Positions 82 through 36,749 of a DNA stretch of 36,750 bases are shown here, piece by piece. Position 1 is the first letter of the stretch, and each line of letters starts with the position of its first letter. The notes below the pieces were generated by a model that had not been told where the DNA came from, made no database searches, and saw only the letters and a list, made by a program, of their open reading frames with translations. The position numbers and the translations under genes are program-made. Source of the DNA: an uncultured Clostridia bacterium (lineage in GTDB: Bacteria; Bacillota; Clostridia; Christensenellales; Borkfalkiaceae); NCBI GenBank assembly GCA_947625865.1, contig CANQQD010000015.1:1-36750 (forward strand). Direction: 5' to 3'.

Positions 82-443
82 CGATCCGAGATAGATCTGT
101 AAGCCGAGTTCTGTCGTGTACGGTCATCTATCTACGCGCACAGTCGCCTGTGCGCTCAAGCGATATTAACGGACGCATGCGGGCGGGCAACCCTCGCATT
201 TAAGCGAGCACGCGTCCCAATCTTGCATCGGGTGGGGTTTAATTGGCTTGCCCCGTCGCCGGGGCAACGGTGAGCTCTTACCTCGCCATTCCGCCCTTAC
301 CGCGCACGTTGCGCGGCGGTATATTTCTGTTCACTTTCCTTAAAGTCGCCTCCACCTGCCGTTAGCAGGCACCCTGCCCTGCGATGCTCGGACTTTCCTC
401 ACGCTGCAAAAGCAGCCCGCGACCGTATGATCGACTCGGATCG
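82..443 (-). ncRNA. rnpB: RNase P RNA, ancestral type A layout
   Basis: This is the catalytic RNA of RNase P, which matures tRNA 5' ends. On the minus strand the universal landmarks occur in order: GAGGAAAGTCCGAGCA near the 5' end, then GGCAGGGTGCC, AACAGAAA, GGTAAGAGCTCACC, and ACAGAACTCGGCTTAC near the 3' end. The ends were set by the P1 helix: CGATCCGAG (443-435) pairs with CTCGGATCG (90-82), giving about 362 nt. The order around the AACAGAAA segment fits type A rather than the Bacillus type B fold; that class is my reading by eye. It is transcribed away from pyk from its own promoter. Confidence 0.96.
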
Positions 444-11233: not shown

Positions 11234-11272
11234 CAAAATTTCACATTCAAGGGCTGAATAAACTTATGTTTA

Positions 11273-11301
11273 ATTATAACAATCGCGTCAAATTTTGTCA
11301 A
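11273..11301 (-). promoter_or_regulatory. uvrB distal promoter
   Basis: TTGACA (11301-11296), a 17 bp spacer and TATAAT (11278-11273) on the minus strand, matching the sigma-A consensus. It lies immediately downstream of a minus-strand terminator, as expected for a new transcription unit. Confidence 0.78.
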
Positions 11302-11303
11302 TG

Positions 11304-11327
11304 AAAAAGAGCCTTAAATCAAGGCTC
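11304..11327 (-). terminator. Orphan minus-strand terminator upstream of uvrB
   Basis: GAGCCTT / AAGGCTC (11327-11321 and 11315-11309) with a 5-nt loop, followed on the minus strand by a T-run at 11308-11304. No intact minus-strand gene lies upstream for it to terminate, only the coding remnant ending at 11329. Confidence 0.75.
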
Positions 11328-11328
11328 C

Positions 11329-11430
11329 TCAATCAATTCCAAAAAGCGCGTTCGGCAAGGCAGGCTCAACCGAATATTTATATTTATCGGTGTGTATGCC
11401 CTGCGGATTTTTATAAACTTCTTGACTTTT
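11329..11430 (-). pseudogene. Possible remnant of a gene 3' end
   Basis: The minus strand reads 33 codons of ordinary-looking protein sequence (containing KNPQGIHTDKYKYSVEPALP) ending LFGID and a TGA stop. The orphan terminator begins just after the stop. A stop codon lies directly upstream (11433-11431) and there is no start codon. I do not recognise the family. The coupling of a plausible C-terminus with a terminator suggests a gene truncated by arrival of the lipoprotein unit; it could also be chance. Confidence 0.35.
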
Positions 11431-11450
11431 TTATATTATAATGTTATATT
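11422..11450 (+). promoter_or_regulatory. Promoter of the lipoprotein leader
   Basis: TTGACT (11422-11427), a 17 bp spacer and TATATT (11445-11450). The predicted start is near 11457, giving a leader of about 220 nt before the ATG at 11676. Confidence 0.65.
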
Positions 11451-11465
11451 TTAAGTACCACATTT

Positions 11466-11663
11466 CACAAACTAAATAAACTGCGCGAATTTTTTGTGCT
11501 TTTTTACACATATTACTGTGTACTCAATGGCAGTGTGTATCTCTGTTTCTGTTGTGCATGGTAATTTGTGTAAATTTTCGCGCATACAGTTTGTGAGGTG
11601 TGGTGACCTGAGGAGATACCGTGCGGTGTGCTCTTTCGGGCACACCTTATTTTTTTACCGCAC
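11466..11663 (+). ncRNA. Candidate structured regulatory leader with internal terminator
   Basis: Three nested pairings build one long hairpin: CACAAACT 11466-11473 with 11588-11595, GCGCGAA 11483-11489 with 11577-11583, and TTTACACATATTAC 11503-11516 with 11561-11574 (13 of 14). The apical loop holds GTATCTC (11537-11543). This can pair with GAGATAC at 11613-11619 or with the identical GAGATAC at 11668-11674 that forms the gene's own Shine-Dalgarno region. A small hairpin (AGGT/ACCT, 11596-11609) and an intrinsic terminator (GGTGTGC 11625-11631 / GCACACC 11640-11646, T-run to 11656) follow. It matches no riboswitch class I know. The architecture is seen in the sequence; the switching is inferred. 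Confidence 0.5.
11625..11656 (+). terminator. Intrinsic terminator inside the lipoprotein 5' leader
   Basis: GGTGTGC / GCACACC stem with an 8-nt loop and a TTATTTTTTT tail, placed 19 nt before the gene's ATG and 8 nt before its Shine-Dalgarno AAAGGAG. An outer pairing GTGCGGT (11621-11627) with ACCGCAC (11657-11663) competes for the base of the stem. The position indicates attenuation rather than end of a gene. Confidence 0.75.
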
Positions 11664-11675
11664 AAAGGAGATACT

Positions 11676-13280
11676 ATGAAGAAAAAACTTTTACTTTTAT
11701 TTGCTGTACTGTTTACGTTTAGCTGCCTTACAGCATTTGGCTGCTCTGTTGACTCGCATACACATGACTGGGGCGATTGGCAAGTAACCACCCCTGCCAC
11801 CTGTGTTAAGGAAGGCTTGGAAACCCGCACATGCAGAGCCGATGAAACCCACAAGGAAACAAGACCGATTGCCATAAACCCAAATGCGCACAATATTGTA
11901 CATTTAGCTGCAAAAGCCGCAACCTGTTCGTCAACCGGCTATAACGAGCATGACGAATGTAGTCTCTGCGGGTATTCAACCAACAAGGTTGAAGAACCTA
12001 TCGACGCTAACGCGCACGATTTGACGTTGATTGAAGAAGTTTACGCAGATTGCGAAACAGACGGCGTTGCAGAGCACTATAACTGCTCTCTCTGCCATAA
12101 AAATTTCGACGAAAATATGACTGAGCTGGAGGATAAGGATTTAATTATTGAGCAATACGGACATTCATGGGACAACGGAACCATAATTGCCGAAGCAACC
12201 TGCAAATCCGCAGGAAGCATATTATACACTTGTCGTTGGGACGACAGCCATACATATACCGAGGAAATACCCATAAATCCCCAAGCTCATGTATGGGAAA
12301 CAGAGCTAACGAAAGAAAATAAAAAGAGATGCTCAATCTGCCTGACCGAACAGGATATCTATACGTTGAGTTCTGATGGCAAAAAGGTATATTTCGGCGA
12401 GTATCCGCAAACAGAAGTAAAAGACAATGACTTAAAAACCGTCCTGAATAAGCAAGCGGGTTCCAAGCCCGACGGATTGTTCCCGAACAGAAAATGGATA
12501 AGTTATCGCTACTACGCAAACGGCAAGCAGAGCGACTTTATGTGGTATCAGGACATAAGTTATGAAAACGCAAAGTATCGCGGCGTCTATTTTTCAAAGT
12601 ACAGACCTGAATGGACGACAAAAAACTATGACAAAAGCGAAAGCATGATAGATAACAGCGGCTATAATGCATATACGGTATATTGGTTTAAATTTGAACC
12701 GATAGAGTGGCGGATATTGTCCAAAGAAGACGGTGGCGCTCTCTTGATGTCCGAAATGATTGTCGACAGTCAACAGTATTATCAAAACGATAAAGACAGA
12801 ACGCTAAACGGAAAAACTGTGCATGCTTCCAACTACGCGAACAGCGATATACGCACGTGGTTGAACGCAGATTTTTATGATACGGCATTCGATAGTTATT
12901 GCAAACAGATAATAGAAAAAACTTTGGTGGACAACAGCGCCGATTCGGTAGACCCCGATGACAGAGATTTTCTCAGTCGATACGAATGTGTTTGCGAAAA
13001 TACCGAAGATAATGTCTTTTTATTGAGCTATAAAGAAATCAATGGCGTAAACGGTTTTGCCGCAGGAAACATTGACGATCCGGCAAGACAGCTTAAAGCC
13101 ACGGACTATGCAAAAATACAGGGACTTGACTATATGTACGATACACCTTTCTGGCGGTTGAGGTCGCCCACAAGCAAAACACACGGACAAGTTGTTTTCT
13201 ATAACGGATATTCAGGTAACGGTCACATAGCACACGTCACTTCTGACGGAATTGTACCCGCTTTGAATATTAAATTATAA
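11676..13280 (+). CDS. Surface lipoprotein with Cys/His repeats and a DUF6273-type C-terminal domain
   Basis: 534 residues. An N-terminal signal sequence (KKKLLLLFAVLFTFS) leads to an imperfect lipobox with Cys23, so lipid anchoring is likely. Residues about 28-225 contain roughly four degenerate repeats with H-x-W or AH starts and paired cysteines (TC...G...C; CSLCG; CSLCHK; CSICL). The C-terminal half starts with VYFGEYPQTEV and ends with WRLRSP and a glycine-rich stretch, as in DUF6273 proteins of gut Clostridia. The function is unknown; a cell-surface role is inferred. It is a lone plus-strand gene with its own promoter, structured leader and terminator, so it looks like a movable unit. 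The start follows AAAGGAGATACT. Confidence 0.82.
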   Translation: MKKKLLLLFAVLFTFSCLTAFGCSVDSHTHDWGDWQVTTPATCVKEGLETRTCRADETHKETRPIAINPNAHNIVHLAAKAATCSSTGYNEHDECSLCGYSTNKVEEPIDANAHDLTLIEEVYADCETDGVAEHYNCSLCHKNFDENMTELEDKDLIIEQYGHSWDNGTIIAEATCKSAGSILYTCRWDDSHTYTEEIPINPQAHVWETELTKENKKRCSICLTEQDIYTLSSDGKKVYFGEYPQTEVKDNDLKTVLNKQAGSKPDGLFPNRKWISYRYYANGKQSDFMWYQDISYENAKYRGVYFSKYRPEWTTKNYDKSESMIDNSGYNAYTVYWFKFEPIEWRILSKEDGGALLMSEMIVDSQQYYQNDKDRTLNGKTVHASNYANSDIRTWLNADFYDTAFDSYCKQIIEKTLVDNSADSVDPDDRDFLSRYECVCENTEDNVFLLSYKEINGVNGFAAGNIDDPARQLKATDYAKIQGLDYMYDTPFWRLRSPTSKTHGQVVFYNGYSGNGHIAHVTSDGIVPALNIKL

Positions 13281-36675: not shown

Positions 36676-36749
36676 GGGACTTTAGCTCAGTTGGTTAGAG
36701 CGGTCGGCTCATAACCGATTGGTCCGCGGTTCGAGTCCGTGAAGTCCCA
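36676..36749 (+). tRNA. tRNA with CAT anticodon (elongator Met, or Ile2)
   Basis: All arms fold: acceptor GGGACTT / AAGTCCC, D-arm GCTC / GAGC, anticodon stem GTCGG / CCGAT with loop CTCATAA (anticodon at 36710-36712), and T-arm CGCGG / CCGTG with TTCGAGT. It lacks the C1-A72 mismatch and anticodon-stem GGG/CCC of initiator tRNA, so it is elongator Met or a lysidine-modified Ile2, which cannot be separated by eye. The window ends one base after the discriminator, so CCA cannot be judged. Confidence 0.93.

Follow-up and report, generated by a model that had tools for sequence, protein, structure and literature searches.

A recurrent, co-varying leader RNA before lipoprotein-type genes of uncultured Clostridia, best read as an orphan riboswitch-like transcription attenuator

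A lipoprotein-type gene of an uncultured Clostridia bacterium is preceded by a structured leader holding two copies of its start-site sequence and a terminator, which raises the question of what this leader does. The locus lies in a 36,750-nucleotide stretch of DNA (referred to here as the window), and its leader was compared with related leaders from other genomes. The leader most likely decides between an early stop of transcription and a run into the gene. The RNA, which is real, recurrent and co-varying, is best read as an orphan riboswitch-like transcription attenuator.

The window leader was checked against an initial annotation made from the sequence. The duplication described there was confirmed (GGAGATACCGTG at 11612-11623, GGAGATACTATG at 11667-11678), as was the terminator with its U tract between the two copies (11625-11656). 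GTATCTC, said to lie in a hairpin loop, was located at 11537-11543 in the apical region of the window MFE structure, with 5 of its 7 bases unpaired. The long hairpin itself was present, but its arms had been drawn too short and the outer helix P1 (11457-11473:11588-11604) was missed. P1 is the outermost helix, extends to the expected transcription start (at about 11456-11457, its first base) and holds bases that matter for switching. The MFE of the window leader was -81.3 kcal/mol (z = -6.08), and 0 of 200 dinucleotide shuffles were as good. The annotated features are real but form part of a larger recurring RNA. Three paralogues in the same genome, an antiterminator, a helix bracketing the terminator and a promoter placing the start at P1 had also escaped notice. 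Coordinates are collected in Table 1.

Table 1. Parts of the leader and the gene behind it, in window coordinates
Feature	Coordinates	Strand	Basis or remark
Promoter: -35 TTGACT (11422-11427), extended -10 TGTTATATT (11442-11450)	11422..11450	+	Read by eye
P1 5' strand	11457..11473	+	MFE pairing with 11588-11604; P1 co-varies
J1/2, AAATAAA	11474..11480	+	AATA common here in other leaders
GGC directly 5' of pseudoknot strand	11529..11531	+	Loop of small hairpin P3 in related leaders
Pseudoknot 5' strand GTATCTCT, apical	11537..11544	+	Complement of 11612-11619; co-variation
P1 3' strand	11588..11604	+	MFE, swap tests, alignment
Antiterminator 5' strand, part one, GGTGTG, inside P1 3' strand	11597..11602	+	
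Antiterminator 5' strand, second part, overlapping pseudoknot tail	11607..11613	+	Duplex with 11634-11640
Pseudoknot 3' strand GGAGATAC, the upstream copy of the initial annotation	11612..11619	+	Complementarity, co-variation
Outer helix 5' strand GTGCGGT	11621..11627	+	Pairs with ACCGCAC 11657-11663
Intrinsic terminator: stem 11625-11646, then TTATTTTTTT	11625..11656	+	Sequence; pairs co-vary, 32 leaders
Antiterminator 3' strand (terminator loop and 3' arm)	11634..11646	+	Complementarity to 11597-11613
Outer helix 3' strand ACCGCAC	11657..11663	+	Only in read-through RNA
Gene behind leader, lipoprotein-type signal sequence and DUF6273 domain	11676..13280	+	

The genome of the window (1.76 Mb, 71 contigs) held four copies of the leader in total, and each of the three paralogues (z = -7.44, -6.99 and -7.30, fold against shuffles) precedes a lipoprotein-type gene. 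An exact 14-base core occurred in 10 of 61 genomes of the genus and a true leader in 9 of 61; the 14-base pattern had hit one locus (L008), the sole match in genome G057, by chance, and this locus was excluded. Because the length of P2 differs between leaders, the covariance models cover the 3' module and not the full-length leader. With the model R1, built from 26 leaders and applied with a cut-off of E 0.001, matches appeared in 34 of 93 genomes from the genus and in 49 of 301 from the family, the latter spanning 8 of 18 genera. A broader model, R2, was built from 102 matches; with a cut-off of E 0.0001 it hit 42 of 396 genomes sampled within the order, representing 17 of 142 genera, and 24 of 391 genomes of the class (17 of 222 genera), the latter including the window's own genome and three family members. 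A phylum sample served as specificity control, and R2 at E 0.0001 matched 1 of 348 genomes, that of the window; among the 21 entries listed from this sample, 11 were of the window's own class. When named genomes were scanned with a pattern, 44 stretches were found; 38 of them came from 'uncultured Clostridia bacterium' assemblies with isolate names starting Lapin, which would point to the rabbit gut, and the remaining 6 were taken as chance matches. Viral contigs yielded 0 stretches with two element patterns, the patterns being strict enough for divergent phage copies to escape.

The leader set was assembled from 101 of 102 R1 matches (search over 100 loci; the weak match L085 1236-1304 was left out) and 33 R2 matches, the latter part of those listed by the order and class searches. 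Of these 134 leaders 132 were distinct, 106 from the window's family and 26 from elsewhere. Both models start at the 3' strand of P1, and neither the P1 5' strand nor the pseudoknot loop strand, which lie further upstream, depends on them. Although R2 lacks the P1 5' strand, a P1 of at least 8 bp was found in 130 of 132 leaders.

Pairings were compared by a swap test, in which the energy of a leader's own strands was set against that of strands exchanged among representatives less than 80% alike (10000 permutations; kinship was handled by the 80% rule only). For P1, own strands averaged -17.27 kcal/mol against -10.21 kcal/mol when swapped (z = -16.0, 30 representatives, 0 of 10000 permutations as good). 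The pseudoknot proposed in the initial annotation, which joins the loop to the upstream copy, gave -15.74 against -11.88 kcal/mol (z = -11.1, 56 representatives, 0 of 10000), and runs of 6 Watson-Crick pairs were present in 47 of 56 own pairings, yet in 45.0% of swapped ones too. An unconstrained search for the longest complement of the pseudoknot tail chose a GTATCTC-type strand for 79 of 101 leaders; for the other 22, a different stretch scored higher. The signal held within the window's family (P1 z = -13.4, pseudoknot z = -6.5, antiterminator z = -8.8) and outside it (z = -8.8, -7.5 and -5.8, respectively).

The alignment A5 comprised 32 compact leaders hand-picked from the 132; L066, whose P1 had been misplaced by the script, was left out. 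P1 was 96.6% paired, and 8 of its 10 pairs had changed on both sides; the pseudoknot was paired in 95.7% of cells (at most 67.3% when slid), with such changes in 3 of 8 pairs. P3 was paired in 63.5% of cells with both-side changes in 2 of 6 pairs, and appears weakly supported. The joint covariation score of P1, P3 and the terminator exceeded 500 of 500 shuffles; the count of 'further pair types' for the same three helices did not exceed shuffles (264 of 500 as high). Exchanges can be read directly in the raw sequences, both in the pseudoknot (GTATCTC:GAGATAC, GTACCTT:AAGGTAC, GTATCCT:AGGGATAC) and in P1 (ACCACA:TGTGGT, GTCACAC:GTGTGAC, GCCTCACA:TGTGAGGC). P1 and the pseudoknot co-vary in both the swap tests and A5. 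A conserved 5' folded domain with compensatory change, a generic riboswitch property, was found.

Conserved bases were sought in the same domain. GGC before the pseudoknot strand was invariant in A5 (32 of 32 aligned compact leaders), although the triplet is paired in the window's own MFE structure (11529-11531); anywhere in the approximately 90 nt before the core it was found in 103 of 132 leaders, a count made without a chance control. Of 130 leaders, 80 had AATA following the P1 5' strand, where shuffles would give 40.1. P1 was preceded by an extended -10 box (TGNTANNWT) in 69 of 130 leaders, compared with 1.2% of random positions, a share inflated because the script favoured P1 positions having such a box. 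The distance from its end to the start of P1 was 5 nt in 57 leaders, 6 nt in 11 and 7 nt in 1, and this constant spacing appears informative. In L015, L018, L027, L030, L090 and L097 (shorter in L095), the P2 5' strand CCGTACGGTATTTTT complements the pseudoknot tail and outer strand AGAGATACCGTGCGG over 13-17 nt, and may be a further competitor for the same strand.

Antiterminator pairing joins 11597-11613 (P1 3' strand and pseudoknot tail) with 11634-11646 (terminator loop and 3' arm). As its strands are shared with P1, the pseudoknot and the terminator, the two folds exclude each other. The swap test gave -11.30 against -7.51 kcal/mol (z = -9.9, 34 representatives, 0 of 10000); runs of 6 were rare among own pairings as well (7 of 34, against 3.6% when swapped). 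In A5 the antiterminator was 88.8% paired against 34-65% when slid, with double changes (7 pairs, 10 cells) that were not above those of the -2 slide (6 pairs, 11 cells). The terminator was 91.1% paired in A5, with both-side changes in 6 of 9 pairs. The two competing structures are balanced in the window, at -15.0 for the antiterminator duplex and -14.7 for the terminator hairpin; the 132 leaders averaged -12.5 and -14.6, respectively. Terminator-based transcriptional control, suggested in the initial annotation, is supported at the level of sequence, and the mutually exclusive terminator/antiterminator platform generic to riboswitches was found as complementarity.

The outer helix gave -7.28 against -5.70 kcal/mol over all leaders (z = -5.1, 51 representatives, 0 of 10000) and z = -4.0 within the window's family (1 of 10000 permutations as good). 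As a universal part of the element it was rejected: outside the family, z was -2.7 (62 of 10000) and runs of at least 6 occurred in 4 of 18 own pairings against 19.3% of swapped ones.

From these parts, namely P1, the pseudoknot, the terminator, the antiterminator complementarity and the promoter position, all of them established by sequence comparison, the following course is proposed. RNA polymerase would initiate where P1 begins. The 5' domain (P1, J1/2 with AATA, P2, P3 with GGC) would fold, and the apical GTATCTC would capture GAGATAC just behind P1. With P1 and the pseudoknot intact, 11597-11613 would be occupied, the terminator would form and the lipoprotein gene would be off. If the fold were not stabilised, 11597-11613 would pair with the terminator loop and 3' arm, and polymerase would read into the gene. 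Because this strand is claimed by both folds, termination should be favoured while the domain is folded and read-through once it opens, so that the folded domain would correspond to OFF; a cellular signal would choose between the two states. The outer helix 3' strand lies past the U tract and is therefore made only in read-through RNA. In the window's family the outer helix (11621-11627:11657-11663) could form in such RNA and might lock it in the antiterminated, read-through state. P1 of the window is 17 bp long; a helix this stable would resist displacement of its outer part, and the window's fold could be permanently closed. That the leader is a cis-acting transcription attenuator of riboswitch type working in this way is considered probable.

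Known RNA families were searched in Rfam 15. At gathering score, the window contained only RNase P RNA and a tRNA, both ordinary (class A RNase P RNA at 83-438, minus strand; tRNA at 36676-36749, plus strand), and 20 related loci contained only an FMN riboswitch elsewhere in L197. A 451-base leader stretch searched to E 10 gave 3 matches, far under gathering scores, and 8 loci searched to E 5 gave 10 matches, every one below gathering. Among these, Phe_leader overlapped the L187 leader (32.9 bits where 55 are required, E 0.051), which was taken as chance or terminator similarity. The earlier remark that the leader fits no known riboswitch class therefore stands for the leaders searched, in which no Rfam 15 family reached threshold.

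T-box leaders (Rfam RF00230) have a structured 5' leader with mutually exclusive terminator and antiterminator. The window leader shares this layout but differs in giving no T-box match, either on the window or the 20 loci (gathering score), on the 451-base stretch (E 10) or on the 8 loci (E 5). In OFF riboswitches of the SAM and purine type, the P1 3' strand is also the antiterminator strand and a stable P1 means termination. The doubling of the P1 3' strand is common to the window leader, whereas its aptamer is another, its P2 is long and length-variable, and its pseudoknot tail enters the antiterminator. In the fluoride (crcB) riboswitch, a pseudoknot strand is swapped with terminator sequence and joins the terminator base (PMC13273304); fold and terminator decision likewise use one strand in the window leader, but the shared strand there serves the antiterminator, its folded domain should favour termination, and it gave no Rfam match. 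The nearest printed idea found was the SLH motif, a riboswitch candidate before surface-protein genes of Clostridia among others, approximately 60% of which precede genes with S-layer-homology domains (PMC6429828). The window leader is likewise a candidate riboswitch preceding surface-protein genes; the two were compared by description only and could be identical. No description of the leader element was met in text searches or in passages of PMC11109978, PMC6429828, PMC13273304, PMC8040213 and PMC8632094, and the element may already be listed elsewhere under a different name.

Of the 132 leaders, 122 had an identifiable reading frame behind them. By a rough rule, under which some assignments are surely wrong, these included 65 lipoproteins and 27 proteins with other signal or membrane starts; the genes appear to be largely those of lipoproteins and other exported proteins. 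Pfam and PHROGs scans were run on 85 proteins hand-picked from 116. Among the 25 listed of 52 Pfam families, the commonest entries were BspA-type LRR_5 (24), DUF6273 (6, found in the window protein behind its lipoprotein-type start) and zinc ribbon (6), with Band 7, LiaF-like, GDSL lipase, AhpC-TSA, TIR and others as singles. No S-layer-homology family was among those 25 for the 85 proteins, many of which were cut at the end of their stretch. The PHROGs search of the 85 proteins gave no informative lead. One metabolite is not suggested, as the downstream genes are too varied.

Of the initial annotation's ALTERNATIVES, neither start-site masking nor a leader peptide was supported across leaders. 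Masking of the real Shine-Dalgarno by the loop, and hence translational control, draws on GAGATAC at the real ribosome site of the window leader (L026) and of 8 others, and the loop paired slightly better with its own site than with swapped ones (z = -2.1, 174 of 10000 permutations as good). Those 9 leaders stand against 106 of 115 in which GAGATAC is absent from the site, and runs of at least 6 between loop and site were found in 25 of 45 own pairings against 41.7% of swapped ones; we regard masking as highly improbable. The duplicated start site would then be coincidental at this locus, or inherited among some of the leaders; what is conserved as the partner is the upstream copy. Control of attenuation by the position of a ribosome on a leader peptide begun at GTG 11621 is the least probable of the accounts considered. 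The 33-codon frame opened there was confirmed, it has an SD-like GAGGAG, and one leader in the frame tally had a frame of length 33; however, GTGCGG occurred in just 50 of 132 leaders and opened frames differing widely in length, some ending after 5 codons and others still open at the end of the 66 codons examined. A conserved short reading frame, as expected of a leader-peptide attenuator, was not found among the frames beginning at GTGCGG. Action in trans, with the terminated leader serving as a free small RNA and base-pairing with GAGATAC at other ribosome sites, would suit a terminator releasing an RNA of approximately 200 nt with the GTATCTC strand, and the four copies in the genome. The partner of GTATCTC co-varies in cis, however, and a gene frame follows 122 of 132 leaders, and we think this very unlikely. 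The leader could also be part of a duplicated promoter-leader cassette that has spread with lipoprotein genes and regulates nothing. Leaders of the window's clade have a very similar 3' module before different genes (79% mean column identity over 26 leaders, picked by an exact 14-base match), and L029 has almost the window's leader before another gene. Compensatory change across families in P1, the pseudoknot and the antiterminator nevertheless needs selection on the fold, and the cassette is judged very unlikely.

With the attenuator as the preferred reading, the nature of the signal was weighed. The signal might be a protein, another RNA, temperature or transcription speed and not a small molecule; the heterogeneous downstream genes suit such a global physiological factor, but bases are conserved where an aptamer would be expected to leave them unpaired (AATA in J1/2, GGC in P3) while the helices vary freely, and this account is held to be possible, short of probable. 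We tentatively put forward a new riboswitch class, spread through the window's class, that would sense one compound, probably a signalling one, and set many unrelated surface and lipoprotein genes. In such a class the pseudoknot tail would also be part of the antiterminator, and in the window's family a helix spanning the terminator, formed only after read-through, would lock ON. An orphan riboswitch-like class would then be represented by 132 distinct leaders, of which those searched gave no Rfam 15 hit reaching threshold, standing before surface lipoproteins (BspA-type repeats, DUF6273) of uncultured Clostridia. These targets make directly testable what the bacteria sense before displaying surface proteins. 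The strand common to pseudoknot and antiterminator, together with the terminator-bracketing helix, is unusual and of interest for co-transcriptional folding.

Three further observations concern single loci. L029, in another genome, has a leader near-identical to window 11260-11760 with similar upstream sequence and a different lipoprotein gene (by eye), which suggests a kept leader with the gene replaced behind it, or an assembly artefact. The 3' module occurs twice on one contig, 481 bases apart, in L084:335-898. In L007:822-1464, two overlapping frames share their first 49 residues (MTPSLVAANLGFKPFALRANGKIAML...), indicating a direct DNA repeat upstream of the C19 leader copy.
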